Of a DNA stretch of 24,422 bases, positions 1,559 to 24,422 are shown piece after piece. Below the pieces are notes generated by a model. That model searched no databases, was not told where the DNA came from, and saw only the letters and a list, made by a program, of their open reading frames with translations. Source of the DNA: Bolinopsis microptera (lineage: Eukaryota; Ctenophora; Tentaculata; Lobata; Bolinopsidae); assembly GCF_026151205.1 (NCBI RefSeq), contig NW_026971878.1:1-24422 (forward strand). Direction: 5' to 3'. Both the position numbers and the translations under genes were made by a program. Each line of letters opens with the position of its first letter. Within the stretch, counting starts at the first letter, position 1.

Positions 1559-2203
1559 CTTAAAATTTTAATTTTTTTCAAAAAAAAGTAAAAATTTTTC
1601 CTTGGTTTTACTGGACTGAATTTTAAATTTTTCCCCGAACCCCAAATTTTTTTGTTTTTAGTTTTTTTTTTAAATTTTTTTTATTTGGGGGGGGTTTTGT
1701 ATTTTTTTGGGGGGGGGGGGGATACAAGGGTAAAAATTTTGGGGGGGTTTTTGGGGGGGGGGTGTGCATTTTCCCCCCAAAACCCCCTTTTTTGGGGGGG
1801 AAAAGCCGAAATTTTGGGGAAAATTCGGGGGGGTTTCCCCCCCGGATTGATTTGGGGTTTAAAAGGTTTTTGTTTTTGCCCCTTTGGTTCGGGTTAAAAT
1901 TTCAATTTCCCCCCCTTTGAAAAACTGGAATTTAAATTTTTTTTTCCCCGGGAAAAAAAATTTTTAAAAATTAGGAAAAAAAAATTTTTTTTCAATAGGG
2001 GCCCATCCCCAAAAAAAAATTTTCGTTTTTTCAGGAAAAAGGGGGAAAAAGTGTAAAAAATGGTACGTTTTACGGGTAAAGTTTTTTTTACATGGGGACA
2101 GTGGGGGAAAAGGGGAAAAAAAAAGGGGGAAAAAAAGTTGGTAAAAGGTTTTTTTTAAAAAAAATTTCCAAGAAAAAGAAAATTTTAAACCCTTTAGTAA
2201 ATT
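1559..2203. other. Onset of homopolymer-block sequence; no gene
   Basis: Complexity collapses within a few tens of bases of 1,559. G runs of up to about 13 dominate 1,686-1,850, followed by A/T blocks. Open frames here encode strings of F, G, K and P and are by-products of the runs. Nothing here can be annotated as a gene. Confidence 0.7.
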
Positions 2204-3310
2204 CGATTGGGTTTTAGAAAATCTTTTTTTAAAAAACCAACATTTTAAATTTAAAAACCAACCCAAAAAAACCAAAAAAAAACGAAAAAAATCAACGCAG
2301 AAAGGAAAAAATTTAAAAAAAAACCCCCGAAAAAAATTTTTTAAAATTTAAACTTTGAACTAAATTTTAAAAAGATTGACCTCCAGGATTTAAAAGGGTT
2401 TTTAATTAGGGTTAAATTTTTTTTGGTTTTTGTTAAATTTTTGTTTTTGTTAATGTTTTGAAAAACTCGGGAAATTTTAGAAACTTTTAAAAAAAAAAAT
2501 ACAAATTTTAAATTTAAAAAAAAATTTAAAAATTTTTTCGATTTGAACAAAAAGAGTAAAGGACTGAAAGGGCGGAACAAAGAACGAAGAAATTTTTTCT
2601 GAAGGTGGGGGCGGTTTTTATAGTCCCTAAAAATTTCGGCACTCCCCCGGAGTGGGGCCCGCCCCCAGAAAATTTCTCCCGTGTAAACAAACGTGGGAGC
2701 CCCTTTCCGGTGGGGGTTTTTTTGCTGACCCGGGGAAAAAACCCCTTCAAAACCCCCCCAGGGCCCCATTTGATTTTTACGGAAAAATTTTTTGTTCTGT
2801 TTTAAAAAAAAACCTTAACAGGGCCCTTTTTTTTTCCGGCAGTTGATTAAGGTTTTTTTTTTTTCAAAACCCCCAAAGGGCCCCGCCGGAAAAAACCCCC
2901 AACCAATTTTGTGTGGTTTTTTTTCTGTCCCCCAAAAAAATGCCCGGGGGGGAACGCTTTTTTTAATAATTTTTTCCCCCCCCTGGGGGCCCCCCCCCCG
3001 CTGGGGAAAAATAACGTTTTAATTGGGCCAAAAAGGGGGGGGAAACCCCAAAAAAATTATTTTTTAGGGAAAATATTTAATTTAAAATTTTTTAAACAAA
3101 CCCCCAAAACCCCCCTTTTTAAAAAAACTATAAAAAATAAAACTTTTTTTTTAAAATAAAAATTTTTTCCGTTTTAAAAAATTAAAAACTAATACATAAA
3201 AAATTAATGCCAAATTCTTCTCGGGTCTTTTGAAAAAATAAAATCTCGTACTAAAAATTTAAAAAATGATGCTGGTTTTGATTTTTGAATTGTGGGGAGT
3301 AAAATTTTTT
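2204..3310 (+). repeat. Long direct repeat, copy 1 (less stretched copy)
   Basis: This stretch matches 8,862-10,312 in the same order and orientation. The best anchors are a CTCGGG motif just after 2,461, GAACAAAAAGAG at 2,545, GAAGGTGGGGGCGG at 2,601, TAGTCCCTAAAAATTTCGGC at 2,621, TTGCTGACCCGGGG at 2,722, TTTTTTGTTCTG at 2,788 and ATGCCCGGGGGGGAACGC at 2,940. The core 2,461-3,050 is the most secure. The outer parts rest on weaker matches, for example GATTGGGTTTTAG at 2,204, GCAGAAAGG at 2,297 and GCTGGTTTTG at 3,270. On the minus strand, 2,769-2,530 is an open frame with fairly mixed composition, but I do not recognise the peptide. The copy could be part of a transposable element or a second reading of one locus. 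The family is unknown. Confidence 0.6.
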
Positions 3311-3910
3311 TCTCTACAAATCTATGATTTAAAATAGTGGGGCCAAAAAAATACACATAACATTTTAAATAAAAATACACAATTAATTTAAAAAAACCTT
3401 TAATCCTTTTATCACAATATTTAAATACACTCCTGTTATAATGATTGGTATATTACTTTTTAATAATATAAATAAAATTTTCATTATACACATTCACACT
3501 TACACAATAAATCTATAATTTTTTTTTATAACTTATTTAAAATTTATGTTTTCTTTTAGACATTATATTTTTTTTTTTGGGTATTTAAAGAAAAAATAAC
3601 CCCACGTTTTTAACCCTAAATAAAATCCCGTTTTTCACACAAATTTTTAAATTTCCCCTAAAGTTTAAATATACACACATTAAAAAAAGAAATTTTTTTA
3701 TTTTTGCACCTAAAATTTTAAATTAATTAATTTTACATAAAAACTATTAATATCCTACTTTATTAATTAATGTAATAAATCTGCTAAATTTCTACATAAA
3801 CTAAAATTTGCACTAAAATTAAATTATACATTTAAAAAATTTACTTTTAACTTAAATTTAACTTTTTAAAACTTAGAAAATAAAAAACAAATTTAGTTTT
3901 TTGTAAAAAA
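3311..3910. other. AT-rich patch, less blocky, no gene
   Basis: Runs are shorter here than on either side and composition is strongly A/T. The word TACAC recurs about six times between 3,350 and 3,675, often within ATACACA-like contexts, as in a decayed simple repeat. Weak matches, such as CTCCTG at 3,430, suggest the long repeat may continue into this patch, but this is not secure. I see no reading frame worth naming. Confidence 0.5.
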
Positions 3911-6900
3911 TTTTTTTAAAGAAAAAATCTTTTAAACCCTTCCCTATGGCCCCCCGGGGCCAGCCCAAATTTTTTTTTTGTTAAAAGTTCCCTCAAATTT
4001 TCCCCCCGGTTTCCCCTTTTTCCCCCCCCCAACCCCTTTTTGGGGGGGGGACTGTTTTTTTTTTCCCCTTTTTTGGGCCCCGGGGGTCCCCCAAAAAAAT
4101 GACAAAAAGGGGGAAGGGGGGAAAGGGTTTTACCCCAAAACCAGCCCTTTTTTTTTTTTTGGGGGGGGAAAATTTTGTTTTCCCCCCCCTGTGCCCCTTC
4201 CCCCCCCCCTTTTTTTGGGGGGTCAAAAAATTTCCCCGGTTTTTTTAAAACCGGGGGGGGGGGGGAAAGGGGTTTCCCCCCTCCCAATTTTGGGAACAAA
4301 AGGGTTAAAAGGAAAAATTTAAAAAAGGTTCCCCTTTTTTTGCCTTTAAAAGGTTTTCCAAAAATTTTTTTTTTTTTAATTTCAAAGGGAAAATAAAAAA
4401 GTGTAACTTTAAAAAGGAAAAAAAAAAAAACGAAACCAAAAAAATACAGTTCCCCAAACCCCCCCTTTTTTTGCCCTTTTGGAAAAACCTGGGGCTTTTG
4501 GGAAAATTGGGCCCTAAACCCCTTTTTCCCCGGGTTTATTTCCAAAAGGGGAAACTTGGGGGTTTTTCCCCCTTCCAATAAATTCCCCCCCTAAAAACGT
4601 GGAAAGGGGGCCCCTTAAAACCCAATATGGGCCCCCCTGGGGGCCCCAAAAAAAAGCTTTCTAAAAAATTTAAAAATTTTAAAATAAACCGGGAATTTCT
4701 TTTCCCAAATATCCCTTTTTTTTTTTTCCTTTTCAATACAAAGGGAAAATTTTGGAAATTTGGTTTTTATTGGTTTAAGAAAATTTTCCACAGGAAAACC
4801 CAACCCTTGGGGAACCCGGTTTTTGTTAAAAGACCCTCCCCTTTTAATTTTTTGGAAAAATTGGAAAATCTAAAATTTCCCCCCGTTTGGGGGAAAAAAC
4901 CCCGCCCCCAAAAATTTTCGGTGCGGGGGGATTTTTCCAAAAAAGCCCCAACCCTTAAAGGGAAAAATTTGAACCCTTTAACAATTTTTTTTAAAAAATT
5001 TTTTCCCTTTAAATTTTTCGTTTTTTCCCCAATCCCCGGGCCCCGTGGGGGAAAAAAAAAATTCCCTTTGGGCCCCCGGGTAAAAAAATCCCCCGCTTTT
5101 TAAAAAAGGGGCCTTTTAAGGGGAAAAAAAGGGGGGTTTCCCCCAACTTCGGGTTAAAACCCAAAAAAACCCAAACAACCCCCCTTCCCCTCCAAACCCC
5201 CAAAGGGGGGGGGGGGGGGGGCCCTTAAAAAATTAAAAATTGGGCCCCAAAAAGGCCCCAACCCCCCCCATTTTGGTTTTTTTCCCGAATTTTGGGGTAA
5301 ATTGGGGGCCAAAAATTTTTGGGGCCCTGGGGTTTTTTTTTCTGGGAAAACCCACCCCGCTTTTTGGGGCCCTGCCCCCCCAAACATTATCTTTAAATAG
5401 ATGGCAAACTACCTTTGGGCGGCCCCCACCAAAATTAAAAAAACCCAAAAATTTTTAAAATCGGCCCAAAACTGGGCAGTAAAACCCCCCCTTTTTTTTC
5501 CCCCCCCCCTTTTTTGACCGAAAACCCGGTGGGAATTTTTTTTTCCCCCAGAACCAAATTTTAAGGCCCCATAAAAGAAGGCCCCAGCCCAAAAAGTTTA
5601 AAAACCCCCCTTAAATTTTTTCCCCAAAAATTTTTTTGGGTTTTAAAATTTAAATCTTTTTTTTTCCCCCAATTGGCCCAATTTTCTTTTCCCGGGGGGT
5701 TTTTTTTAATTTTTTTCCCCAAACCCCCAAAACTTCCCAAACGGGGCCCGACTTAAAAACCCCGGAAATTTTCCCCTTTTTGAAATGGGAAAATTTTCTT
5801 TAAACCCCCCTTTTAGAATTCCAATTTTGGGTTTTCCATGGGGCCCCCCTTTAAAAAAAATTTTTAAAAATCCCCCTAAAAAAAAAAGAACGGGGGTTTT
5901 TTCCCGGGCCCCAATTTTTTTCTCAGCCCTCCCAAGAGTTTTGGGAACCCAAAAAGCATTATCTTTCTTTTTCCCCTTTAAAATTTTCCCCTGAATTTTT
6001 TGTTTTTCCCGGGAAAAAAGCCAATTTTCCCCCCCGGAATTTTTTTTTTTTGAAAACCCCCGGTTTTTTTCCCGTTTTTTTTGGTTTTAAAAAACAAGCA
6101 AAATTTTCCCAGGGGATTGGCCGGGAATTTTCCCCGGGGAATTTAAAAAATTTTAAAAAATTTATTGCCTTTTTCTTTCCCCCGCCTTAAAGAAAAATTT
6201 GAATTTAAAGGAAAACCGAGAAGGCCCAAAAAAATTTTTAATGAAAGGTTTTTAAACCCAAAAATTTTTAACCCCCAGCCCCAAAAAATTTCCGGGGCTT
6301 TTTTTGGGGGAAAATTGGAAACCCCGGGCCCAATTTTTTTTTTTTTTTTCCCCGAAAATTTTTGGAAAATTTTTCCCGTTTTTTTTTTTTGGGGGGTTTG
6401 GGGGGCCCTTTAAATGTTTTTTAACAAAGGGGGGGAAAAAATCCAAAAAGAAAAACCCTTTGGGGCCCAAAATTGGGGATTTTGGGGGGACGTGGGGGAA
6501 CTTTTTCGTTTTAAAAAGCTTTCCCAAAAATAAACCCAAAAATTAAAAGGCAAGTGGGGGCCCTAGGAAAAATATGTTTTTTTAAATTTCCCCCTTTTTT
6601 TTTTTCGAAATTTCCCCCGGTTTTTAGTTGGGTTTTTTTTTAAAAGGGCCCAAAACAAACCTTGGGAAAAAGTAAAAATTTTCCCCCGGGGGCCCCCGTG
6701 GTTTTTTACCCCCGGTTTTTGGGGAAACCGTTTTTTTTTCCCAAAAATCCCCGATTTTTTCCCCTTGGGTGGGGGCTTAGTTTGTTTTTCCCCCCCTTTG
6801 GGGCCCCCCTTCTTTTAATTTAAAACCCCCTTTATCGTTCCCCCGTCCAAAAAAACCCCGCCTTTTTTTATTTAAAAATAGGGGGGAGGGAAAATTTTCC

Positions 6901-8861
6901 CCCCCCGGGGGAAAGCCTTCCTTCCCCCTTCGTCCCCCCGAAAATGTTAAAAAAAGGTTTCCCGGAAAGGTTTTTGGTTTTAAAAACCTTTACACGCCTT
7001 TTCCCCCCTAAACCCAATTTCCCCCCGGAAATTTTAAAACACACAAAAAACCCTTTTTGTCCCCCAAGGGAAAATTTTTCCTTTAAAAGGGGCCCTTTTC
7101 CCAATTTTCAAAAAAACTGATTTTTTTTTTCCCCCAAAAAACCCTTTTTGGAAAACCTTTTTGGGTTTTTTTTGTAATTTAACCCTTCCCCGGGTTTCCC
7201 TTGGGCCCCGGGCCCTCCTCTTTTTTTAAAACCCGTTTTTTTTTTTTTTATCGTTTTGGGGTTTTTTTTTGCCCTGAAAAAAATAAGTGGCCCCAAACCC
7301 CCCCATTGGGAAAAAAAACTGGGAAATCCCCCCCCTCAAAATGGAAAAAGGCATTAAAACCCCAAAAAAATTTTTTTGGAAAACCCCCCTTTTTTTCCCA
7401 TTTGGTTCCCCCCTTTTTTTTTTCCCGGCCATCCCCCCTTTTTTTTTTAAACCCGGGCCCCCCAAAATTCAAAGAAAAAGGGCCCCAAAACAAATTTTTT
7501 TTTTGAAAAAGGCCCTTTAAAATTTAAGGGGGTTTTTCCCCCTTTTTTTCCCCCGTTTTTTTAAGAAAAAACCCCCCCTTTTTAAAACATTTTAAAAAGA
7601 AACTTTAAATTTTTTGGGGTTTTTCCTTTTTCGCCTTTTTTGTTCCCCTTTTTTCCCAGGATTTTTTTTTCCCCAGTTTTTTTTTTTTAAAAGCCCCCTT
7701 TTTAGGGAAAGGGTTTTTGTCCCCCCCCCCCCTACCCTGAAAGGGGCCTTTTTTCTGCCCAAAAGGCCCAAAACCCAAACAAATTTTTTTTGGGGAAAAT
7801 TTTAAAAAACCCTTTTTTATTTTAAAACGTCCCTTTTCCCTCAAATTATCATTAAACTTTTACCCCGCCCCCTGAAACCTTTTCCCAAACCCCAATTTTT
7901 TTTGGGCCGTTTTTTTTTCCCAGCCCGGTTTCCCCGGGGAAAGGGCCCGGAAATTCCCCCCCCCTTTTTCCGAACCCAGTTTTTTTTTTGGCCCTTTTTT
8001 TCGGGAAAAAAAACTTTTAAAAATTTTGGGAAACTTTTGGGTTTTCCCCTGGGCCCCCAAAAGTTTTGGGAAACCCCGTTTCTTTGGGTGGGCCCCCTTT
8101 TCCCCTTTCCTTTTACAAAAACTCCCCAAAATTTTTTCCAAAACCCGTTTTAACCCCCGTTTTTCCTTTTCCGAGAACCCGGAAAAACCCCCCGTTTTTT
8201 TTCCCCGGAAAATTTCCCCGGGGGTTTTTTTTAAAAACGTTTCAGAAAAACCGGAAAAACCCCCCCCTTTTTTCCAGGGCCCCCCCCCGTTTAACCCCGG
8301 TTTAAACCCCTTTTAAAAAATTTATTCCCAAACTCCCCCCCTTTAAATAAAACCGGGAAAAAGTCCCAAAACCCCCGGTAAAAATAAAAATCCCCCCTTA
8401 GGCCTTTTTTCCCAAACCCCCCCCCGGAAAAATACTTGGTTTTTGGGGGTTCCCCCCGGGTTGGAAAAGCCAAAATTTTTGTATTGGAAAGGGTTTTTTT
8501 TGGGGGGTTTTGGCCCCGGTTTTTAAATTTGGGGTGTCCAAAATAGGTAAACCCTTTTTTTCCCCCAAAAAGGTTTTTTCCCCTTTAAATTCCCTTTCCC
8601 GGGAACCCCCCCCTCCCCCCCCTCAAATCAAAATTTTTGGGGGCCCCCACCCCGTTTTCCCCCCGGTTTTTTGCCCAACAATTTTTTTTGGTTTTCCCCC
8701 AAGAGCTGGTCGATTGGTTTTTTTCCCCCGCCCGTTTTTTTTTTGGGGAAAATTTTGGGGGCCCCCCCCCCGGGGTTTTTTTTTGTCCCCTAATTTAAAT
8801 TTTTTTTTTAAAAAAAAAAAGGGAAACCACCAAACAGGCCCAAATTGGGGTGGGCCCAAAA
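3911..8861. other. Homopolymer-block sequence, no supportable gene
   Basis: Nearly all of this stretch is blocks of 3 to 10 identical bases. In 4,021-4,080 I count 15 runs in 60 bases. Many frames stay open for 60 to 220 codons on both strands at once, yet they encode almost only F, K, P, G, L and N and contain no recognisable motif. A few short normal-looking islands occur, for example around 5,385-5,425. They are too short to identify. Confidence 0.65.
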
Positions 8862-10312
8862 GAATGGTTTTACAAAGGCCCCAATAAATATTTTTTGGGG
8901 AATTTTTTTAACAAAAAAAAATGCCCCCAAACCTTGGGAAGGGAAAGGGGGGCTTTTTTTTTGGTTTTCCCTGTTTTAAAATTTTTTGGTTTTTTTGGCC
9001 CGAAAGGGTTTTTTTTTCGGGGCCCCCCCCACAAACCCCCTTTTTTTTAAAATTTCCCCGAAATTTTTAAATTTAAGAAAACCCCCTCCCCCCATTGGGG
9101 AGTCCCCCCAAAGGCCTTTTTTTGGTTTAAAAGGAAATTTCGAAAAATTTTCGTTTTTTGTTTTTTTTTAAAAATTTTTTTTTTTTTTAAACCCCCCCGG
9201 GGAAAAGAAAAAATTCGGGAAAACTTTTTGGAAAAAAAATTGGGGTTTTTAAAAAACAAACCAACAAGTGGGTTTTTAAATTTACTTAAAAACCTTTTTT
9301 TCCAATTTTTCCCATTCAACAAAAAAGATGGGGAAAGGGGTTTAAAAAGGGCCGAAGGGCCAAAAAAAAAAAGAAAATTTTTTTTTTTTTGAAGGTGGGG
9401 GGGGGTTTTTTTTTTAGTCCCCCACTAAAAATTTTCGGGCCCAAAAATCCCTTTGGAAATGCCAGCCCCAAAGGCCTTTCCTCGTGGTTTAAAAAAAAAC
9501 CCCGGGGGAAACCCCCCAAAAAATTTCCCGGGGGTGGGGGTTTTTTGCTTAAAAACCCGGGGGGTAAAAACCCCCCCTTTCCCTTTTAAGGGAACCTCCC
9601 CTAAAAATTTATTTCCCACCTTTGGGTTTAATTCCCTTTTTTGTTCCAAAAAGTTTTTTTTTAAAAAACCCCTTAAAACAAAGGAAAGGTTTTTTTTTTT
9701 TCCCGGGCCATGATTTTTAGGTTTTTTTTTATTTACAAAAAACCCCAAAGTTCCCCCCCCCCCGCCCGGGAAAAACCCCCCAAAACCCCAAAATTTTTGG
9801 GTTGGTTTTTGGGTTTTCCCGTAAGCAATTGCCCGGGGGGGGAAACGCTTTTTAGAATTTTTTGGCCCAAACCCCTGTCCCCCTGGGCCCGGGGGCCAAA
9901 AACCTACTGTCCCCCCCCCAAAATCTTGGGGGTTTTTGGGCCCCGGGGAAGGGTGGGGGAAACAATAAATAAAAAGTTTGATAATGGGTGGGGACCCAAA
10001 ATTTTAAATTGGGAGGGTTTGGGGAACCCCCACCCAAAAACCCTCGCCCTTCCCCCAAGGGGAAACCCCCTTTTAAAACCCTTCTTTTTCCCCCCAAATT
10101 TTTCCTTTCCCTGGGGGGGCCCCCTTTCCCCCCTTAAAAAATTTTAAGGGTTTTCCCTCCCCCCCGTAAGGTTTTGGGGAAAGGGGCCCCCCCCCTTGGG
10201 ATGTTAAAAAAAAAAAACGATAAAATTTAAAAAAAACCCCCGGGGGGAACCCCCTATTTTTTAAATTTGCGGGTTTTTTGACACCACTTTTTGGGGCCCC
10301 CCAAATTTTTTT
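8862..10312 (+). repeat. Long direct repeat, copy 2 (about 1.3 times stretched)
   Basis: This is the partner of 2,204-3,310. The anchors in order are ATTCGGG from 9,208, CAACAAAAAAGATG at 9,317, GAAGGTGGGG at 9,391, TAGTCCCCC at 9,415, TTGCTTAAAAACCCGGGGG at 9,545, TTTTTTGTTCC at 9,637 and TTGCCCGGGGGGGGAAACGC at 9,829. Measured from the first anchor, distances here are 109, 183, 207, 337, 429 and 621, against 84, 140, 160, 261, 327 and 479 in copy 1. Every ratio falls between 1.29 and 1.31. Single bases that interrupt runs in copy 1 are often missing here. No complete coding frame is visible and the element cannot be named. Confidence 0.6.
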
Positions 10313-13300
10313 GGGAACCCCAAAATTTTTTTTTTTTTCTTGGCCAATTTTTTTTTTAATTTTTTTTCCCTGCCCGAAATTTTTTTTTTTTTGATTTACC
10401 CATGTCCCCCCCCCGCCCCCCCAGATCCCTTTTTTTGCTCCTGCGAACGAAACAACGGAAAGAAACCCCCCCAAAAAAAAGAAATTTCTTAAAAATCGGA
10501 ACCCCCAAAGGCCCCAAAATCCCCACGAAAAGAAAAACAAGAATTGGGAAAATTTCTAGTTTTTTGGGCCCCCCGGGCGGGGTCCCCCAACCGGGGGGAA
10601 AATTTTTTTCCAAAAAATTTTTTTTTTGAAGGCCCTTTTTAAAGACATTTAAATTTCCCCCCGTTTAAAAAAAAAAAGGGTTTTTTTTTTTTTTTAAAAT
10701 CTTTTTAAATTATTTTTTTATTTTTTTTCGGGAAAAAACGGGGGGGTTTTAAATTTTTTATTTCCCTGGGGGGGCAGTAAAAAAAAAGGTTTTTTTTTCC
10801 CCCAAACCCCGAAGCCCCCTTTTTGCTTTGCCAAAATAGGCGCCCCCCCCCGCCCCCCCCCGCCCCCCCCCTCCCGTTTTTTTTTTCCCCGGCCCCCCAA
10901 TTGGGGCCCCCCGGTGGGAAACCTTTTCTTGGCCCTTTCAAAGCTTTTTTGGGGGGCCTTGGGGGAATGGTAGGGGGAAAAAATTAAAAACCCTTTTTAA
11001 AGGGGGTTTTTAAACCCAAATTAAAAACCCCCAAATTAAAACTAAAGAAAAAACCCAAACATTTAAAATTTTTTTGGCACTTTAAAAACCCAGAAAAAAT
11101 TTTTCCAAATTTTAAAAAGGGCAATTTTTAAAAAAAATTTAAAAAGGGGGGGGGGGTCCCCGCCCTTTTTTCCTTAAACCCCGTCCCTTTTTAAATCAAA
11201 AAGAAAGGGCCCGAAAAAGGGGGTTTTTCTGGAGGGAGAAGTTGGGAGTGCCCCCAAAACTACAAAGCGCTTTTCATAAAAGCTGTTTTTTTTTTAAACC
11301 TGCCGCCCCGGGCGCGGCCAAAAAAACCTTTTCCCAAACGGGGTTTTTGGGGGGAAAAGGGGGGGCTTTTTTTTTTTTTTTGACCCTTTTTGGAAACCAA
11401 GGGGGCCCCCCCGCCATTTGGCCCCCGAAAAAACAAAAATGGGTTTTTTTGGTTTAAGTTAAAAAAAGGTAAAGGGGCCCCCCGGAAAAATATTATCCCC
11501 TTGCCAACAAAAAAAAAGGGAAGCTTTTTTTCCCTAGACTTTACCCAAATGGGAAAGGAAAAAATGGGGTTCCCCCCCCAAAAAATTTTTTTTAAAACCC
11601 TAATTTCCAAAACCCCTCCCGAAAAAATTAAAAGGGTTTTTCCGGGAAAAGCCCGTAATTTTTTGGCCCCCCCCCTTTTTTTTTAAAAACTAAAAATTTA
11701 AACCCCCCCGGGAAAATCCACCAAATTTTTTTTGGAAAAGTTTTTGGAAAAACCCCCATTGGGAAGGGGCCCCCCGGCCCCCCCAAATTTTTTTTTTAGA
11801 AAAGAAATCAATTCCCCAAGGGGAACCCAGAACGTAAAAAATATCCCCAAAAAAATTTAAAAAAACAACAAAAATTTTAAAAAATTTGGTTCCCCCAAAA
11901 TTTTTTTGGTCCCAAATTTTTTGCCCCAAAAATTTTTACAGGGTAATTTTTTGCCCTTTTCCCAAAAAACCCCCGGCACCCCTCAAAATTTTGGCAAACC
12001 CAGGCGAAAACTCCAAACTGAAATTTTTTTCCCCAAAAAAAAGGGGAAAGGGAAAAAATTTTTGGGAACGGGGGAAAAAAAAACCCTCAAAAAGTCCCCC
12101 CCCCCCCCCCCCCCCCTCAAGAAAAAAAAAAAATTTTTTTTTAAAAAACCCCTTTCCAAAGTTTTTAAAATTTTTAAAGGTGGGAAACCCCCCCAAATTT
12201 TTTTTTCCCGAAAGTCCCCGTTTTTAAAAAAATTTTTAAAAGCTAAAACCCTTAAACCCTTTTTTAAAGCCCAAATTTTTTCCCCCAAAAAACCCCCCGT
12301 TAAAAAAATTTTTAAAAAAATAAAAAACTGAAACTTTTTTTGACTTGGGGGGCCCCAAAATTTTCCAAAAATTCCCAAGAAAAAAAAAAAATCCCTTTAA
12401 AAAAACCCAAGGGAATTTTTGGGTTTAAAAATTTTGGTTATATGATGCCAAACTGTTGGGCAGTTAAAAAAAGAAAACCCCCGGCCCCAATAAAAGGGGG
12501 GAAAAAAATTTCTGGGAAAAAAATTTCCAATTCCCCAAACTGTCAAAAATTTTTAATTCCCCCGAAAAAAATTTTTCAAATAATTTTGGAAAAAAATGGG
12601 CCCGAAATTTTTTAAAATGTTTCCCCCTTTAACAAAATTTAAAAATCGTATTTCAAATGGGGCCCACCCCGGGGTTAAATTAATAAGGGTTTTTTTAAAG
12701 GGTTTCCCCCCCCAATTTTTAAAAATTTAAAATTTTGCTTGGCTTAGAATTTTTTTGGAAAAAAAAACTCTAAACTAGGGGAAAAAATGAATTTTAATTT
12801 CCCCCACAAACAAAGGGTTTTCCGGGCCCTTTTTGGGGGTTTTTTGGTTTGGTCCCCCCCCCAAAAAACTTTTTAACCTTTTTTTTTTTTCCCCCTTTCC
12901 CCCCTGAAAAATTTAAAATTTTTTTTTTTTTTGGGGTTTTTCCCCCAAAATTTCAGTCCCCCTCCCCCATTTTAAACGAGAACCCCAAAAATGAAAAACC
13001 CAAATTTTTGTTTTTTTTTTAAATAAAACAAAAAACCCATTTGGGGGGGGGCCCTTTTGGGCCTTTTAATTTTAAATGGAAAACCCCCGGGCCCCCATAA
13101 CCTTTTTAAAACCCCAAAAAAAGACACCCCAAAAAAATTTGAAAAAATTTTTTAAAAAATTTTAAAATTTTAAAAAAATTTTAAAAAAAAATTACGTCCC
13201 CCCCCAAAGTTATACCTTTGCCCCCCAAAAAAAAAAAAAAGCCCAAAAAAATTTTCTTTGGGTAAAAATTTTTTACCAAAAAAACCCAAAGGGCCCCCCC

Positions 13301-13600
13301 TTTTCTGCCCCTTTTTTTTTAAAAAAAAGGGTCCCGGAAATTCCCTTCATAAAACCCGCCCCCCCCCAACAATAATAAAAATTTAAAAAAACCCCAAAGT
13401 TTTAATTTATTTAAAGGGAAACAAAAAAATCTCTTTCAGGTTTTTTTTAAAATAAATTTTTTATTTTCAAAACCCCGAGCCCTTTTGGTGATTTTTTAAA
13501 AAACCCTTTTTTTTTTAAACTGAAAAATAATTTTCCACCCCCCTTTTGTAAAACCCCCTCTGTTTACAAAACCCCGTTTTTGGAGAAAATTTCCCCCCCT
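10313..13600. other. Homopolymer-block sequence, no supportable gene
   Basis: This is the same blocky text as before, including a run of 21 C at 12,096-12,116. Somewhat more varied islands occur near 10,430-10,470, 11,225-11,310 and 12,435-12,470, none identifiable. Open frames on both strands are by-products of the runs. Confidence 0.65.
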
Positions 13601-14687
13601 TTTAATCTGTTGAAAAAAAAAACCCCGCTAACATATTTTTTTTTGGTTTTAATTTTTGGTTTTTTTGGGAAAGAAAAAATTTTTTCATATTTTCCCCCCG
13701 GATTAGAAGCAGGGGCGGGGGAAAGGGGTGGGGCTTCCAGAAAGGTTTTGTTTTATTCCCCCCCGAGTGCAAAACAAAAAACCATTTAAGCCGGAAACAT
13801 GCGGTTTTTGGAAACGTTTTGACCCCTTTTTGTGAGATTTTCCGTCCCCCCTTTTTAAAAAAAAGGCCCCCCCTTCAGGGGGCCCCTTTACCCCCCCGTC
13901 CCCCCTTCCCCCTGCTGAACAATTTTTCCATCCCCTTCCCCTAGCCCAACTAAGAGTTAAAATTGTTTTTTTTTTTTTTTTTAAGTTTTAAAAAAAAAAT
14001 AAAAAAAATATCACATTTTTCTGTAAAAAACCCGAAAAGGGCCCCCCCCCCCTTTTTATCTGATTTTTTGAGCGAAGCCCCTTTTTCCCCCCATCTAACC
14101 CCCCCTCCCCCCCCAATTTTCCCCCCTTCCCCCTTTTAAGTTCGACACGTCCCCCATAGGTTCGACAACCCTTTAGTTTTTGGGCTTTGATATCAAACCC
14201 CTGTCCCCAACATCGAAAAATTACCGGGGCCCTGTCCCCCCCCAACTTAAAGTTCCCCCCGGGTTTTCGTACCCCTAGTTTTGCAAAATATTCTGCTTGG
14301 ACCCAAAGGCTAAATTGCCCCGGTTTCCCCTAAAAGAAAAATCGCAGGGGTTCAATGGCCGATAAAAAAACAAATTTTTTTCAAAAATCCACAACCCAGC
14401 GTTTTCAAAAAAACAAACAACAACAACAAAAAAGGGCGAAAAACCCAGCAAACAGGAAGAGGGGGGGCCCATCCCCCTTTTTTTCCCTTTTTCGGTCGGG
14501 CGAAACGGGGCCTTTTTCGGTAAAAGATTTTTCCCCCCTGCCCCCAACATATCCCCCGGGCCCCCAACCCCCCCGGGCCCCAAAAACACCGTAAAAATTT
14601 TTTTTCGCAGCTCTTAAAAAAAGCCCCCTACCATCCCAAACCGGTTTTTTTGGGGATGAACGGGCGCCCCCTCTATTTTTTGAAAAT
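13601..14687. other. Mixed blocky and normal-looking sequence, no gene identified
   Basis: From about 13,650 islands of ordinary complexity return, for example 13,700-13,830 and 14,135-14,230. The octamer GTTCGACA occurs at 14,140 and again 20 bases later at 14,160. A minus-strand frame over 14,245-13,988 has a more protein-like start than its neighbours but soon dissolves into G, K and R-rich text. I do not accept it as a gene. Confidence 0.5.
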
Positions 14688-14779
14688 CTTTTGGCCCCCA
14701 ACGGGATTCGAACTCCGCAACCTCAGGGCCAGTAAAAAACAACAAAAATTAAACCAACTAAGCCTGAGCCACCCAAAAG
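14688..14779 (-). tRNA. tRNA-like element: degenerate tRNA gene or head of a tRNA-derived SINE
   Basis: On the minus strand, AGGCTTAGTTGG (14,765-14,754) fits the pol III A-box consensus at 11 of 12 positions. AGTTCGAATCC (14,714-14,704) fits the B box at 10 of 11. Thirty-nine bases separate the two boxes. Around the B box a T arm can be folded: GCGG-G pairs with C-CCGT, with one bulged A, around the seven-base loop TTCGAAT. The ends, CTTTTGG (14,779-14,773) and CCAAAAG (14,694-14,688), form a perfect 7-bp stem like an acceptor stem, and a TTTT pol III terminator follows at 14,686-14,683. Against an intact tRNA, the T arm has an inserted base, there are six extra bases between T arm and acceptor strand, the middle is T-rich, and no anticodon can be assigned. 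A tRNA-derived SINE head or a tRNA pseudogene damaged by run errors fits best. Confidence 0.45.
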
Positions 14780-15447
14780 TCCCCCTGGCAGATAAAACAA
14801 TTTTTTCCCAAACCTCCTAGCAACCACGGTTAAAAAAAACCAAAAAACCTTTTTAGAAAAGTTTTTAAAAATTTTTTTTTCCCCGTTTTATTCGACTAGC
14901 TAACAGGAAAAAAAAATTTTAAACCCAGATTTCAAAAAACTTTAGTTCGAAAGTACGCATTTTTTGTTCGACGAAATCCCCCAAAAAAATTTAAGGGTTT
15001 TTTTTCGAAAATACATAGGGGGAAAACTAGAAGAGCGGTGTCCAACTTTGAGTACTTACTAATTTGCTCCGTAAAACAAAATAAAAAAACCAAAAGGGGA
15101 AACCTCTTTTTCCCGAAAAAATTTTTGCGAAATTTTCCCCAATAAAAAAAAATGTACTTACCATAGAGGGTTTCTCTTTCCCCCCTTTTTTGGGGTTTTA
15201 AGCTTGTGGGAAATTTTGGAAAAAAAAATACAAATTCCCGTTTTATTTTTTGGGCCCCCCACGTTTACGCCAAAAATCTGACTCGAAAAACTGAAATTTT
15301 TTTAAACAGAAAATTACCCCCCCGGCCCCCCAATTTTTTTTAAAAAAAATTTCTCTGTTAAAAAAAAACCCCCGAAAAGTGCCTGTTTAATTTTTCATTT
15401 AAAATTTTGGAAAAATTGTCCCCCAAAAAAAAACATTAATTATAATG
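14780..15447. other. Mixed sequence beside the tRNA-like element, no gene
   Basis: Islands of near-normal complexity lie at 14,885-14,980 and 15,020-15,080, separated by A and T blocks. If the tRNA-like element heads a SINE, the SINE body would lie on its other side, below 14,688, not here. I see no reading frame or RNA structure I can support. Confidence 0.5.
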
Positions 15448-15738
15448 AACATTTAAAATTTACCCCCCCCTTTCTGGGGGTTGTGGCGATGGGGAGGCTT
15501 TTTTTTTTTTAAAAAAAGGTTTTTTTAAGAGCGTGATGTTTTCCATTGTTATTTTAATTATCGAATTTCTGACGGAAACTAGCACGAAAGACCCCCCAAA
15601 TCAAAAAAAAAAAAAAAAAAACCGCTACCCCCCCCCTTTCCCCAATCCCGCAGCTCGCGTTTTCCTAAAAAAAACCCCATTTTTTTTCCAACGATGCCCG
15701 GTAAGGAATGTCCCCGTAAAAACTCCCCCCCGAAAATT
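15448..15738 (+). repeat. Direct repeat of about 290 bp, copy A
   Basis: This stretch aligns with 15,986-16,277. Shared landmarks are an ACATTTAAAATTT-like start and C run, TTCTG at 15,472, GCGAT at 15,486, AAAAAAAGG at 15,511, GTGATGTTTTCC at 15,533, GGAAACT at 15,574, a TAAAAAAAA run at 15,666, GTCCCCGT at 15,710 and CCCCCCGAAAATTT at 15,725. From TTCTG the offsets are 14, 39, 61, 102, 194, 238 and 253, close to those in copy B. The identity is unknown. Run-length errors limit the alignment. Confidence 0.42.
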
Positions 15739-15985
15739 TTGCCCCCCCCCACCCGAAACTTCTTTCCTCCCCCACTTTTTTCTGCCCCGTTTTTTTTCCC
15801 CCCCCAAAAAAATAGAAAAATTGGGGAAAAACCCCAGTTTTTTAAAGTTTTTTTTTACAAAAAAAATATTTTTTTTACTTGGTTGTAGCCAGGCTTTTAA
15901 AAAAAGTCGGTTTTAAATCCCAAAAAGATGAAAATTATAATTAAAACAGAAAGCCAAAAACCTTTAAAAAGTTAAAAAAAAAACA
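15739..15985. other. Spacer between the two direct-repeat copies
   Basis: This is C- and T-rich blocky sequence followed by A/T blocks, with a short normal-looking island around 15,878-15,915. No gene or RNA is visible. Confidence 0.5.
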
Positions 15986-16277
15986 CATTTTAAATTTTAC
16001 CCCCCCTTCTGCAGGGGAAGCAGATGCGATTTGGTTAGGGAAAAAAAGTTTTTGCTTTTTTTGGGGGAAAGTGGTTTTTTTTCCCCCCCCCCCTCCCCCC
16101 TTTTTTTTTTGGGAAACTTTTTTTTTTTTTCTTTTTCCCCTTTTCCCCCTTTTTTCCCCCCCAAAAAAACCCCCTTTTTTCCGGCTGTAGGGGGCGAGCT
16201 TAAAAAAAAATGAAAACGGCCAGTCCCCGTGGGTTTCCCCCCCAAAAAGCCCCCGTCCAAAATCCCCCCGAAAATTT
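15986..16277 (+). repeat. Direct repeat of about 290 bp, copy B
   Basis: This is the partner of 15,448-15,738. Landmarks are an ACATTTTAAATTTTAC start, TTCTG at 16,007, GCGAT at 16,026, AAAAAAAG at 16,041, GTGGTTTTTTTTCC at 16,071, GGAAACT at 16,112, a TAAAAAAAAA run at 16,201, GTCCCCGT at 16,223 and CCCCCCGAAAATTT at 16,264. Offsets from TTCTG are 19, 34, 64, 105, 194, 216 and 257. Unlike the 2.2/8.9 kb pair, these two copies have nearly the same length. Confidence 0.42.
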
Positions 16278-16390
16278 GTTTTTCCCCAAAACGGTTCAAA
16301 AAAATTTTGAAAAAATAATTTTAAATTTTAAAAAATTCCAATTTAAGAGCTTAGGGGGTTTTTAAAACCCTTAAAAAAGTAATTTTAAAC

Positions 16391-16717
16391 AATCGATAAA
16401 CCCTTTAAAAAAACCTTGCCCCAAAAAAAAAAGCAAAAACCTACAAACCTGAGAATTTGGGTAAAACCCCCAAAAACCTTTTAAAAAAAAAAAACAAAAA
16501 AAAACCCTACAAAAACCCGAGGAACGGATTAAAACCCAAGAAAAAAACCCAACCAAAAAAAAAAAGCAAACCTAACAAAACCTAGGAACCCCGGATAAAA
16601 CCAAAAACCTAAACCAAAAAAAAACAAACCCTACAAACCTGAGGAACTGGAAAAAGAACCCTAAGAAAACCTAACCAAAAGACAGCAAACCAAAAAACCC
16701 CGAAAAAACTGGTCCCC
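16391..16717 (+). repeat. Minisatellite: about 5.5 tandem copies of a unit near 60 bp
   Basis: Units begin at about 16,433, 16,495, 16,566, 16,625 and 16,685, with a partial unit before the first (from about 16,391) and a shortened last one. Spacings are near 60 except for one of about 71, which holds longer A runs. Each full unit reads roughly as (g)caaaccctacaaacctgagg, then a short ggaac/ctgg segment, then (g)gataaaaccc, then aacctaaccaaaaaaa. The clearest unit is the one at 16,625. Units differ by substitutions as well as run lengths, so they look like diverged tandem copies and not one unit read several times. On the minus strand the array is open and gives a loose repeat of about 20 residues, which I take to be a by-product. 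Bases are strongly A and C on the plus strand. Confidence 0.65.
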
Positions 16718-18599
16718 CCCCAATAAAATTAAGACTGGGCCCAACAAATTTGTCAGGGCCCGATGGGTTTTAGAGCACAGGTTTTTTCCCCCCTGGCAAT
16801 TGGTACACAAAAATCCATACCCTTATTACAAACTGGAAAAAAAAAAAATTTTTTTAGAAAATTTTTTTCTTTTTTCAAGTCAGAAAGGGGGGCCCCCATT
16901 TTAAATTTTTATAAAATTTTGGAGGGGCCTTTTTTATTGGACCAAAACCCCTTTAATTTAAATTATTGGGGCTTTTAAAAACGGGTCTCAAAAAAATCCT
17001 AAGAGAAATTTAAAAATCTGACTAAAATTGAAATGACCTTGCGATTTTTAATTTTTTTGGGAAAAAATCGAAATGAAAATTTTAGTATTTTTTACCCCAA
17101 AATGTTTTAAAAAAAACTTGTTTCCCCCTGGAAAAGGGCAGGGCTAAAATTAGAAAATGATCACAAATTTTTAAAATTTGGGGCTAAAAAAACGTTTTAA
17201 GTTAAAAAAAAAAAAAAGAAAAAAAGGGATTAAAAAAAAAACAAAAACCCCCGCCCCCCGCCTAGCGGATAAAACCCGAAAAACCCCAAAAAACAAAGGG
17301 GGCCCGGGGCCCGCGCCAAAAAATTTGGGTTTTTTTTTAATTTTTTTAAATAAGGAGGGGGGGAATTTTTAAAAATTTTTTTTACCCCCGAGCGGAAGTG
17401 TTTTTTTGGATTAAAATTTTTTAAATCCCCCCCGGGGGATTTTTGACAAGGGGTTTTTTTTTTAGAAGAAAAAAAAAAATTTTGTTTGGGGAAAACCCAA
17501 TTGTTTAAACCCCCTAACGACAGGGCCCCCCCCCAAAAACCGATTGGGAAAGCTTTTTCCCCAACCAATGTTAAACCGATCCCCGTTTCCCCCCCCTTTT
17601 ATAGGGCCCCCACAAAAACTGAAAAAAGTTTTTAAAAAAAAAAGAGCGGAAAAAAAGGAACAAAAAAATTACAAAAACTTTAATTTTTAGGGGAGAAAAA
17701 AAAGGGAAAATGGGGGTTCGCCCCCAAATTTTCCCCCCCCCCAACCCCCACGCTTGGGAGAAATTCCCAAAAAATTAGCGCGGTTTTGGGAACGTTTTCC
17801 CAGAAATTTTTGCGTGTAAAAAAGGGGAAGGGGTTTTTAAAAATGTTTTTTTTATACCTGTGGTGCCCTTTCGTGTCCCACGTGGTAAATTTTTACCTTT
17901 GGGGGGACCCCACAAATATTATTTCTAAAACATTTAAAAAAAAAAAAAATTTGGGGGAATGACCCCTTTTAGGGGGGCCCCCCCCCTAACGTGGTATAAC
18001 TCGGCGTTATCATTTGGGGGGCTTGGGTACGCACGTGGAAACCCCTGGACCGCCCCCCCGGTAAAACGCGCCCCTCCCCAAAATGTTTTCACCTATTTTA
18101 TATCGAGTTCTAATTCACAGTAAAAAATTTTATTTTGTAATCCCCAAAAATTGGGAAGAAAACCCAGTTACGACTAAAAAAAACGGGGCCGGGTTTTTTT
18201 TAAAAAAAATTTTCCCCGGGGGGGGGAAATAATCACCTGGAAAAATTTATCAAAACGGGGCCCGGGGGCCCTTTAGGATTAATATGATCCCGGCCCCCGA
18301 AAAACCCGGAAAAATATTTTATAGTGTGGGGATCAACAAAAGAAGGGGAAAAAAAGGAGAATTTGAAAAGAAAAATTGCCCAATGTTTGATAAAATTGGC
18401 AAAATGTTTTTTTTTAATTTATTTTTTTAAAAAAAAAAAAATGCATGACCCCTGGAGTAAAAAAAGGGGGAAAACGGAAAAACACGTCCCCCCCACTCCA
18501 AAATTTTTCTTTTTTTCAAACCCCCCAGAGCCCCTTTTCCCCCAAGAATTTTTTTTTTTAATTGAAAAGGCGAGCGAAATTCGTGGGGGCGGATCTCAA
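16718..18599. other. Mixed blocky and normal-looking sequence, no gene identified
   Basis: Normal-looking islands lie at 16,740-16,830, 17,000-17,090, 17,780-17,920 and 17,985-18,130. The last two contain CACGTGG at 17,879 and 18,032 and AACGTGG at 17,988, plus small inverted repeats such as ATAAC/GTTAT around TCGGC at 17,997-18,010. No frame keeps protein-like composition for long. Confidence 0.5.
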
Positions 18600-20100
18600 A
18601 ATTTTTTTTTTTTTAATCAATAAAATTTCAAATTGTTACACAAAAAACATCGTGAAAACCCAACCAAAAAACCCCCTGTGAAAAGGTCCCCCTTCAAAAA
18701 ACCAAGCTCACGAACCTTAAAAAATTTCTTTTAAAGGCTTTAAAAAAAAGGAAACCTGGAACATTATACCATAAAAAAAAATACGCTAAACTCCGGAAAC
18801 CAATTTTCTTGAAAAGGAATTTTTTTTAAAAAAAAAAACCCATCGACGAACTTAGGAAAAAAAACCTAGCCCTTTTTTTTCTCAAATAGGCCCAAAATTA
18901 AAAAACAAAAAGCGCCCTACCAAAACAAAAGATGCTTTAAAAACCCCCCCATCGATAAAATCCCCCCTAAAGCCCCCTTAAAAACGACCTATCATGTTCC
19001 CGTCCCCCCCTGGCCCCCTCCCTCAACCCCAAAAATCTAAAAAGGCAAACCCGCGAAAAAAAAAAAGAAGGGGAAGCCCCCCCGCCCCCAAAATTTTGAC
19101 TAAAAAAATCCTCCCCCAAAACCCAACCCCCCATCTGAAAAAATTTTCCCCCCAAATGGAACAGGGGTTCCCCAAAAAAAAGCTAAAAAACAACTTTTCG
19201 CAAGGTAAAAACGGGAGAAAAAACCCCCCCCTGGGAAGTTTACCTTTTTCCCCCCCCCCAAATTTTTTTTTTTACCTTCCCCTTCCCCCTCGGGCAAAAA
19301 AACTGGCGGTAAAAAAGGTAACGTGAAAACTCTTTTCAAACCAACCCTTTCAACAGCAAAAAACTAAATGAAAAACTAAAACCCCGGTATGAAACGTGGT
19401 CCCCAACAATTGCCAAGAAATAGTACAGTCCTCCCCAAACCGCAAAATTTTTTTTACCTAAACCCCCAACCCCCCCCTTTTTGATTAAAAAAAACATGAG
19501 AAAATTTTTTTTGACCCATTTGGAAGAAAGACTCCTCAAACCACCCCCCAAAATTCTTTTTCCCCAAACAGCGGTTAAAAAAATTTGAGTTTGGCGAAGC
19601 CCCTATTTTAAACAAGCTCCCCTGCCGGCTTTAAAAAGGGCCCCAAAAAATTTTCCCCAAACTCCCCATCTCAGAGTTCAGAAAATCTTAGGAAGAAAAA
19701 AAAAGGCCCCCCCAAAAAAACCAAAAAATTAAAACCCCAAACAACACTTTAAAAAAAAGTGTCGCTTTTTCCCTTTTCCCCCCCCCCGAAAACGGATGTC
19801 AAAACAATTTTTTTTTGAGGAGCTCCCCTTCTTTTTAAACCCCCCATTTTCCCCCAAAACCCCAAGACCACGGGGCCTACTTTAAAGGCCCCAAAATACC
19901 ACAACCTCAGGTCCCAAACCCCCCAACAACCCTCAAAAGTCTGGTTGAAGCTTAAAAGAAATTGGAAACAAAAAAGAAAATCACCCCCTATAAAAAGAAA
20001 ATTCGGGAAGTACCCTTACAGACCCCCTCAAATCCACGTAAAAAATCCCCCCTAAAAAAAAGTCCCCCCCCTTTAAAAACCCCCGCAAAAAAAAATTGTT
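18600..20100. other. A/C-skewed stretch, no gene identified
   Basis: The plus strand is dominated by A and C. For example, positions 19,681-19,740 contain 35 A, 14 C, 6 G and 5 T. Short normal-looking islands occur at 18,620-18,720, 19,325-19,440 and 19,865-19,935. Frames are open on both strands only because runs dominate. I see no RNA gene. Confidence 0.5.
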
Positions 20101-23100
20101 AAAGAACTTTTTTTTTTACCCGTAATAACCTTAAAAAATTATTTTTAGACATCCCTTTCCCCTTTTTTAAATTTTCCCCTGAAAAAAGTAAAAAGGTTTT
20201 AAAAAAAATTTTTTATTAAATTTTTTTTAAATTAAAATTCGTTTTTTTGAATAAATTTTTATTTTTATTTATTTATTCATTCTTGTATAAAAAGAGGCCC
20301 CGTTTTGTGTTTCCCCCCCCTTCTGGTAAATTTTAAAAGTTTTTATCCTGTTTTTTTTAAAAAAAACCACCCCTTTTTTTTCAAAAAAAAAAAAGGTTCG
20401 CCGTGACCCCCAAAAAAAAGCCCTTAAAAAAATGACCGAGTGTAAAAAAAAAAATTAAAAGGGCACCGGGAAAAAACCCCCTTGACCATAAAAAAAGGTT
20501 TCCCCCAATTTAAAATTTTTGGGGCCCCCCTATAAAAGGGACCAATTTAAATATAAGTTTTAAAAAAGATTGCGCAAAAAAAGGGAAGCTAGGTTTTTTT
20601 AAAATATTTTAAACTATTAATTTTAAAAAATTGCGAAAAATTTTTTCCCCCCCCCAAAAAAAACCCCGGGGGAAAAAAATAGAAAAAAAAAAACCCACCG
20701 AAAAAAAAAGACCCAAAATGACCCTCTGGGGGAAAAAACAAAAACCCCCCTTTTGCAAATGGGGTTGAAAAACCCCCCCCAAAATTTTTTGGGGAGGGGT
20801 TAGAAAAAAGGAAAAAGGAAAAAAAAAGGCCCCCAAAGCATTCTTAAATTTTGAATTTTTAAGGCCCCTTTTTATTTTTTTTTAAAATTTTTAACGGGCG
20901 GAAGTGAAAAAAATAACCTTTTGAAAAAAGGTCCCTTTTTTTTTAGCAAAAAATTTTTACTCCCGGGTGTTGCCAGCAAACGTTTAAAAAAAAGCAACGT
21001 GCCGAGCAAAAAACATCTTAACCCACGCCCCGGGTTTTTTTTTGATGATCCCCCTCCAGATTTAAAACTAGCCACATTTTTTTCGCCCACGCATGGATTT
21101 AATATTAAAACTTTGGTTTTGAATTTGGGAAAATTTTTTTGATGCGGTAAAAAAAATAAAAAATTCGTTTTTTGGGAACCCCCCAATACTAAAAACGCTT
21201 GCCCCCCCCCTTTTTTTTAAAATTTCCAATTTTGTCCCACAGTATAAACCCGAGCTAAAAAAAATGAAAGAAAAATTTAAAAAACATAACTGATTTTTTT
21301 AAAAATTTTTCCCCCCGAAACAAAAAACCTTTCGACTAGCGGGTTTTTTTTTAGTAAAAAAATAAAAAATTAATAATAATTTTACTGAAATTCCCCAAAA
21401 ACAATTGGTAAGGATGGAAAAATCCCCCTTGGGCGTTAAAAAATTTCCCCTGGAAATGGCCCCATTTAAAATCATTAAAAGGGGGCAATTCCCCCCCATT
21501 AAAATTAGTTTCATCAAAACCCCCATTGGTTCCTAAAAGTACATTTAAAAAATTTTGCCCCCCGGAATTTTTTCAAAAAAAGAAAAAAATGTTTTTTTTC
21601 AAAAAAAAAAATGGGGGAAAATTTTTTTTTGACTGTGGAGAAAATTGACAACAAAACGTTCAGCCCGGTTTTTAGAAAATGGGAAAAATAAAACCCCACC
21701 CCAAAACCTTAATTTTTGGCAAATCGACAAACCTCTTTTTTTTTTTTTTTTAAAATTTTTTTTTTAATTTTTGCCATTTGTTGGGGAAAAAAAAACTTTT
21801 ATCAAAAATTTTTTTAAAAAAAATTAAAAAATTTAAAAACCCAAAATTGGTGAGAGGCGACACCAGGTTAAATTCAACAATATAAATTTAAATAACACCA
21901 GAAAAAAAAATGGGAAGACCGACAGATTTTTTTAAAAAACTGGTGGGGAAAAAAAAAAATGGGGCGGAAAATTTTCGTTAGGGACTTGGTGCTCTGGGCC
22001 CCTTTTTTTTTCCTCAAGGTAAATCGTTGGAAAAACCCCAAAAAAATATAAAAAAAAATTCCCCGAACTTCGATTAAAAACAGCACCCAAAAAATTTTTA
22101 AAAATAAAAAAAGGGGTTTTGCCCAAAAGCAAAAAAATTGAAAAAAGACACTATTTTAATCCCCCCCGTAGAGATTTTTTGACAAAGGTTTTTAAATTAA
22201 ATCCCCTTTAAAGCGGGCCCCCCCCAAAACACAACAACAGGCCCTATAAAAATTACAAAGAAAAAAAACAAAATGGGCCCCGGCCTTAGCGAACGTAAAA
22301 TTAAACATTTGTAAACCCCTGTACCAAATTTTGTACAGCCCCGGGAAAATTTTTCCCAACAAAAAAAATTCAAATTAGCTCCCCGTTTTACGGAAAACCC
22401 CTTAAACCCCCGAGCAAAAGTCTTTTTTCCCAAATCTGAAAAAAGACACCCCCCGGGGGCCCCGTATATTACAATCAAAATTAAACGTCCCCCAAAATAA
22501 CCTCAGTAAAAAATCAAAAAGTTGGAAAGGAGGTGGCCCGTGGTTAAAAAAAAGACGTGGGGGCCCCCAAAGCAATAAAAAACGGCAGGGTTTTTTAGTC
22601 CCCCCCCCCCATTTTCCCCCCCCGGCGTGCTCAAAAAAATACGGATTCCAGACAATTTTTTAAATAATTCATTCCCCAAAAATCCCAAAACAAACAACCT
22701 GGGACGAAACAGATTTTCACAGGCCCCAAAAGAAAAATTTAAAGTGTAAACCCTCATTTTCAAAAATTTAAGAAATTTTTTGGGTCCACAAAGTTTTTTT
22801 AAAGTCCCCCAACCCCCCCAGCGTTCCGTGCGTGATTAAAAAGAAGAAAAACGGCCCCTTAAGTCCCAAATTTCCTTTTAATGAAAAACGAGGGTTGCGT
22901 TTTTTAAACTAGATAGGGAAAAGCCCCTTTAAAAAAATGAAAATGAAACCCCCTCCCAGCGAACACTAAAAGTTAAATGTTTGGGATAAAACCTTTTTGT
23001 TACGCAAAACCCCGAAACATTAAAAATATAAAGCCGGGGGGACTTTTTTAATTTTTAAAAAAAATTCGTTTGAAACGGGAAAAAAGGGGGCTCTTAAAAG

Positions 23101-24422
23101 CTTTAAATTTATATTTATTTTGCATGGGGTTTTTTTGGGGTTAATTGAAACCCAAAAACCCAAAAATTTTTTAATTATGTAGTTTAAAACAGATTGATCC
23201 CTAAAAAAACCCAGAAACCATTTTTTCCAAATTTTAAATAATTTATGGTTTTTTAAAAAAAAATTAAATTTATGGTATAAATGAGGATTTTTTCCCCCCC
23301 AACAGAAAAAGGAAAAAAATAAAATAAAAAAAAAAAAAAACGTTTTTCTTTTTGGCCCTTATGGCCCCCTATATATATAATGTGTACTAATACAGGGAAA
23401 ACGGTATTTTAATAAAGCAAAAGGCCCACCCGGGGACCGGAAAAACTAAAAAATTACTGATGAAGAACTTTAAACACGTACCCAACAAGGGGCCAAAGTC
23501 GAGAAAAGGGGCCCCCCTTTTTTTAAAATTAAAAACGGGGGTAAATCGCAAACTGACCCTCTTTTTTAACTCCAAAAAATCCCCCCCTTTAATTTTTTAC
23601 AGTTTTAAAAAACCCTTTTCAGGCCCGGGCCCCAAGGAACTTAAAAAATCCCAAAAAAGAGTAAACGAATTAATTTTGGGAATAGCTTTTAAGAAAGGGA
23701 AATTTTTTTTCGAAAACAAAAATTTAAAGACAAATTCAAAAAAGGGTTTTCAGGTGATGATAAAAACTCTAAACCACTCGAATACACGTGGGGCCCCTAC
23801 TTAAAACAGGGTTCCTAGATGGGCCCTCGGGACAATTTTCCCCCGTAACCCCCCTTTTATCTTCCCCAAAAACCCCCCCCCCTTAACCCAAAACCCTTTT
23901 AACTGAAAAACAAAACAAAAACTCCAAAAACCAAAAAAACGAAATTTTTCAACCCCCAACTTTCTTAGGTGGTCCCCTGCCCCCGTGATCGAAACAAAAA
24001 AATTTTTAAAAAAAAATTAAAGGGGCCCATAACTCCCGGGGGGGGGGGGGGGGGGAAATTTTTAAAAGGCCCAATGGGGGGGTTGACCCAGATTTACATT
24101 TCCCCCCAAAAAATACAAAACGATCCCCCAGAATGGGTTTTTTTCCCCAAACTTCCCCTAAGAAAAGGGGGCCCTTTTTTTTGAAAAAACCCCCCGCAAG
24201 TTTCCGGTTTAAAAAGGGGTTTTTTTTCAAAGCAAAGTTTTTTGGCACCTTTTAAAAAAAAGCCCCCCCCCTCCATAACGGTTAATTGTAAATAAACCCC
24301 CTTTAGAAAAAGTGTGCAAAAATAAAAAATTAAAAACCCTCGCGCCCCCCCGGAACCCCTTTACACCCCTTTTTTATTTTACCATAAATTCCAAAAAAAA
24401 ACTCCCCCCGGGTTTTGCCCCA
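20101..24422. other. Mixed blocky sequence with islands, no gene identified
   Basis: Islands of more normal complexity lie at 20,240-20,300, 20,885-21,145, 22,225-22,480, 22,640-22,730, 23,340-23,480 and 23,740-23,800. The first is an A/T-rich stretch with repeated ATTTATT-type words. The most protein-like frames are on the minus strand at 22,763-22,503 (86 residues, starting MKMRVYTLNFSFGACENLF) and on the plus strand at 23,460-23,804 (114 residues, lysine-rich). Neither shows a recognisable motif, and both run through homopolymer blocks, so I list neither as a gene. A run of 18 G lies at 24,038-24,055. Confidence 0.5.
22319..22338. repeat. 20-bp near-perfect palindrome
   Basis: CTGTAC and GTACAG flank an AAATTT core, so nine of ten base pairs match. 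It lies in a normal-looking island. By rough estimate one such palindrome is expected by chance in a window this long, so no function is assigned. Confidence 0.3.

Follow-up and report, generated by a model that had tools for sequence, protein, structure and literature searches.

Two stretches of unequal length in a small Bolinopsis microptera contig as the probable, unequally distorted LTRs of one retrotransposon

Results

The window and its clean counterpart

The window analysed in this study covers contig C119 in full (24,422 bases), one of the 232 contigs that make up the 264.65 Mb of the Bolinopsis microptera assembly. Its first 700 bases match the minus strand of contig C1 at 96%, and the reverse complement of C1 7,709,262-7,745,261 (36 kb; C1rc in the following) served as the reference for the window. 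The two sequences align collinearly, with the window corresponding to C1rc 6,001 to about 25,250-25,260 (C1 7,720,002-7,739,261). The features are listed below in window coordinates; stretch is the length in the window divided by the length of the counterpart in C1, and the strand of the predicted LTRs was set by gag and the TG..CA ends.

1-1,540, no strand: little-distorted contig start; stretch 1.02-1.05, with 1,481 of 1,491 aligned bases identical to C1 in three 500-base tiles
1,600-3,880, no strand: distorted segments with the first copy; the tiles before about 3.6 kb have a stretch of 0.87-1.14
2,352-3,099, minus strand: predicted 3' LTR, distorted (first copy of the sequence-only reading); stretch 1.09 (747/683); counterpart C1rc 8,382-9,064; left edge approximate
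3,100-9,039, minus strand: predicted retrotransposon interior, distorted; placed by tile-wise best match to its C1rc counterpart and by global alignment
3,950-13,600, no strand: most inflated segment, with the second copy; the tiles are stretched 1.37- to 1.55-fold, and most mean runs are close to 3
6,780-9,051, minus strand: counterpart of the 503-aa gag frame of C1; mapped from C1 and absent from the window's own listed ORFs
9,040-10,040, minus strand: predicted 5' LTR, distorted (second copy of the sequence-only reading); stretch 1.46 (1000/683); counterpart C1rc 13,218-13,901
13,750-24,395, no strand: distorted segment with a stretch of 1.56 in one of its 18 tiles and of 1.15-1.28 in the other 17; G and T lost more

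C119 is a distorted version of a single clean stretch of C1 with a mean run length of 1.38, and most probably a badly called duplicate of it. For all 35 run-collapsed window tiles of 700 bases, the best-scoring place in C1 is the expected place on the same strand. The expected places were taken from the global alignment of the window with C1rc, and the candidates in this control were overlapping tiles on both strands of the 36 kb of C1 that were compared. For the two tiles lying over a predicted LTR, the other LTR ranks second, with scores of 233 and 220 for the tile at 2,101, and of 216 and 207 for the tile at 9,101. A BLAST comparison of the run-collapsed sequences returned the true alignment plus many others of about 62-65% identity on both strands and with small E-values, which we take as effects of the collapsed alphabet; for this reason the fixed-tile test was used instead. 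An inverted read-through was rejected, as for none of the 35 window tiles does a minus-strand match in this part of C1 exceed the score at the tile's own place. Beyond the part covered by the window, C1rc 28,430-28,839 (C1 about 7,716,423-7,716,832) holds a tandem array of related units.

A gag-bearing element in C1 and its relatives

In C1, the two copies correspond to a direct repeat of 683 and 684 bp (at the C1rc positions listed above), whose members start 4,836 bp apart, are 99.56% identical and differ by two substitutions and one 1-base gap. We interpret this pair as the LTRs of a gag-bearing, otherwise ordinary LTR retrotransposon, which reads on the plus strand of C1. The LTR ends are TG..CA (TGTAGGG...GTTACA in all four copies of the element that were read), and the 684-bp match extends up to five bases beyond them. 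A putative PBS-like site, TGGTGCTGCGACC, lies a few bases past the 5' LTR, and a polypurine tract, aaaggagggtggag, precedes the 3' LTR. The 503-aa frame of C1 matches the family Retrotrans_gag (Pfam: PF03732) with an E-value of 7.4e-6 and a score of 26.5 bits (cut-off 24.1); zf-CCHC falls narrowly below its cut-off in the same frame (20.3 versus 20.8 bits), and residues 363-401, the CCHC knuckle region, match solved nucleocapsids with a best E-value of 6.7e-5. From gag to the 3' LTR, the element strand of the C1 copy contains five frames of 60-77 aa in which no pol was detected; two of their matches, both below the cut-off, are to DUFs (E 0.006 and 0.015). This result is compatible with a strongly decayed pol.

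Three relatives of the same layout (L006, L007 and L008) are present elsewhere in the genome, two on C10 and one on C6. Their terminal repeats are 4.8-4.9 kb apart, and the left LTR is interrupted in L008. Target site duplications are usual in LTR retrotransposons, and recombination can remove them. By eye, three of the four copies show a 4-bp duplication (ACGT in L006, CCTG in L007 and GTGG in L008), and the C1 copy has none (gtgt versus aagt). Such a duplication alone is not decisive for membership in Ty3/Gypsy. Across the four copies read, the LTR pairs are 99.2-100% identical, one pair being in two pieces. As in the C1 copy, no match to a pol family was found, here for the 112-aa frame of L006, and among the matches listed there are weaker gag relatives elsewhere in the genome. 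We give an even chance to the reading that the element belongs to an LTR family which is gag-only, small and recently active, and which would have been copied by the polymerase of another element.

Within the 5' LTR of L008 lies an insertion of 2.76 kb (L008 670-3,429; C10 about 1,607,870-1,610,629). An open frame of 810 aa (L008 1,052-3,481, minus strand) is located nearly completely inside this insertion; it matches no Pfam family at the cut-off (best E 0.11). We rejected the possibility that it is an antisense frame of the element, given its true place in the LTR insertion.

The repeat could also be a local segmental duplication rather than an LTR pair, and the missing target site duplication of the C1 copy would fit this model. 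Against it stand the three relatives at other places, which share the layout and carry 4-bp duplications, as well as the gag frame, the PBS-like site and the polypurine tract, all found in place. We consider a segmental duplication very improbable.

Similarity and limits of the two copies

The sequence-only reading had described a collinear core, 2,461-2,957 and 9,208-9,848, in which seven anchors recur in the same order. This homology is borne out by our comparisons. After run collapse, the two cores align with a score of 132.5, which none of 1000 controls reaches (maximum 57.0), and the full repeat aligns with 150.5, a score that likewise none of 1000 controls attains (maximum 80.0); in each draw, the second sequence was resampled by a first-order Markov model. 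With the earlier limits of 2,000-3,400 and 8,600-10,400, the score is 163, against maxima of 92.5 for 300 shuffles and 111.5 for 300 other stretches of the window. When the whole window is compared in run-collapsed 1-kb tiles (1,081 non-adjacent pairs on both strands, i.e. 2,162 comparisons), the copy pair holds the top two scores, 148.5 and 143.0, followed by 110.0.

The cores also map alike onto the clean repeat. Their starts, 2,461 and 9,208, fall on C1rc 8,492 and 13,328, the latter being equivalent to 8,492 in the frame of the first copy; their ends, 2,957 and 9,848, fall on 8,937 and 13,774 (equivalent to 8,938). Two weaker matches had been extrapolated beyond the core. The one at 3,025 and 9,938 falls within the repeat, and its two sites correspond to homologous positions, give or take about 5 bp. 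The one at 2,204 and 8,862 turns out to be a chance match: its sites lie to the left of the two copies, which begin at 2,352 and 9,040, and they map to C1rc 8,225 and, in frame, 8,263. Outside the repeat, the left flanks are at chance level (391 of 1000 shuffles are equally good), and so are the right flanks (731 of 1000). Since the copies outscore the shuffled sequences and their flanks do not, the similarity is real and ends near definite edges.

These edges bear on the earlier proposal that one sequence was read twice and that the assembler joined both readings in tandem. Two copies on the same strand with unlike run inflation are what such an error would leave behind. However, the window has a single, collinear place on C1, which passes through the unique interior of the element that separates the copies; the clean C1 itself holds both copies with a different interior between them, and the homology ends at the LTR ends, with flank scores at chance. 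The proposal is thus refuted by C1 unless C1 was misassembled in the same way, and we see hardly any probability left for it.

Regimes of distortion along the window

The mean run length per kb is 1.43 in the first kb, 2.9-3.2 in the region of 4-13 kb and 2.2-2.7 past 14 kb. The onset of the distortion is abrupt near 1.6 kb. A second switch takes place between the copies at about 3.6-3.95 kb, with a jump of the run length near 3.95 kb; the tile stretch is 0.87-1.14 from about 1.55 to 3.6 kb and 1.37-1.55 from there to 13.7 kb. Compared to C1, the percentage of lost single-base runs, given as the range over the bases, is 1-3% in 1-1,540, 47-59% in 1,600-2,400, 17-38% in 2,400-3,880, 30-44% in 3,950-13,600 and 18-36% in 13,750-24,395. 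The single-base runs that survive average 1.5-2.1 bases in 2,400-3,880 and 2.3-3.1 bases in 3,950-13,600 (1.4-3.1 overall from 2,400 on). Of the runs of three or more bases, at most 4% are lost from 3,950 on. All four bases show this loss of single-base runs together with the lengthening of the survivors. The alignment is poor over about 1,550-2,471, where two tiles have 368 and 350 aligned bases out of 500 in C1, and hence the first LTR is delimited on its left side approximately.

In the segment 13,750-24,395, single A (18%) and C (21%) are lost less often than G (36%) and T (35%). This loss is strand-dependent, the rates for G and T being 1.7 to 2 times those for A and C, and it may underlie the negative GC skew and the positive AT skew of the segment.

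The origin of the factor 1.30

According to the sequence-only reading, the spacing within the two copies differs by a constant factor of 1.30. As an overall ratio of the cores this holds: relative to C1, the first core is stretched by 1.11 (496/445) and the second by 1.43 (640/446), so that the second exceeds the first by 1.29 (640/496). The constancy does not hold, as the ratio varies from 1.01 to 1.69 per 50 bp over the LTR and from 1.08 to 1.55 per 100 bp. The earlier reading gave no positions for its five inner anchors; for seven evenly spaced core anchors chosen in this analysis, the cumulative ratios are 1.31, 1.28, 1.26, 1.30, 1.30 and 1.29, and the interval ratios 1.31, 1.24, 1.21, 1.41, 1.31 and 1.22. 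When seven anchors were drawn at random 2000 times, the median spread was 0.04 for the last four cumulative ratios versus 0.54 for the interval ratios. The factor 1.30 thus appears steady because cumulative distances average out, and the argument that biological insertions and deletions would not scale so uniformly is weaker than stated, since it is based on such distances. The stretch is 1.13 at C1rc 8,501-9,000 versus 1.46-1.49 at 13,001-14,000; the LTRs lie in unlike regimes (about 1.1 and about 1.45), and as a consequence their distances differ by a factor of about 1.3. The factor itself has no biological meaning.

Discussion

We are nearly certain that the two copies represent the LTRs of one retrotransposon, which lies reversed in C119, an unequally distorted duplicate of a clean stretch of C1; the clean repeat, the one-to-one mapping of the window, the distortion regimes and the stretch ratio are observed directly. 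According to this model, errors at the base level have removed many single-base runs from C119 and lengthened those that survive, and the strength of these errors varies along the contig, abruptly in places. The first LTR lies in a mild regime, with a stretch of about 1.1, and a strong one (about 1.45) holds the second. The second proposal of the sequence-only reading, that two copies of a repeat were technically distorted to different degrees, is supported: both copies are undistorted in C1, and their stretch differs in the window. The technical nature of the distortion is an interpretation; it probably derives from low-quality long reads, or from their consensus, kept as extra contigs.

Other small contigs of the assembly show similar features. 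In a sample of 37 that were chosen by number from C20 to C232, with 800 bases taken from a single place in each, the median of the mean run length is 1.45; 13 contigs exceed 1.6 and six exceed 2.1. The values of 1.6-1.9, found in seven of the 13, may partly be natural. Four of the distorted contigs (C118, C180, C220 and C225) were read at both ends, and all contain low as well as high run lengths; the changes are abrupt in C180, C220 and C225 and more gradual in C118, and the clean starts of C180 and C220 match repeats in several contigs. For the long contigs C1, C6 and C10, the sampled pieces have mean run lengths of 1.37-1.40. A sequence pattern tried as a marker of distorted contigs occurs at four places, none of them in C119.

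That the run-rich sequence is real DNA, e.g. an unusual homopolymer-rich haplotype whose copies were expanded biologically, has nothing in its favour beyond the sequence of C119 itself and is scarcely credible in view of the first 1.5 kb, which agree with C1 with slight inflation up to the abrupt onset, the loss of single-base runs and lengthening of survivors in all four bases, the changes between low and high run length seen in four other small contigs, and the low values of the long contigs.

Strong run-length distortion affects some of the small contigs in this assembly, and frames, composition skews and repeats read directly from such contigs are unreliable; a clean duplicate should be consulted first.

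Long-read sequencing makes run-length (homopolymer) errors, and C119 resembles this type of error in that changes of run length dominate, but differs from it in the additional loss of single-base runs. In the titles and abstract openings covered by our literature search, we met no description of this loss pattern, which is not proof of its being unreported.

With the Retrotrans_gag (PF03732) LTR retrotransposons, the element shares the paired TG..CA LTRs, the PBS-like site, the polypurine tract, the gag with its CCHC knuckle region and, in three of the four copies, the 4-bp target duplications; unlike in these, no pol domain was detected in the interior of the C1 copy. In the latter respect it is similar to non-autonomous LTR elements such as the TRIMs, which are LTR elements without a detectable polymerase. 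The abstract on PbTRIM (PMC3532108) describes TRIMs as small; in contrast to them, the element described here measures about 5.5 kb and possesses a gag frame.
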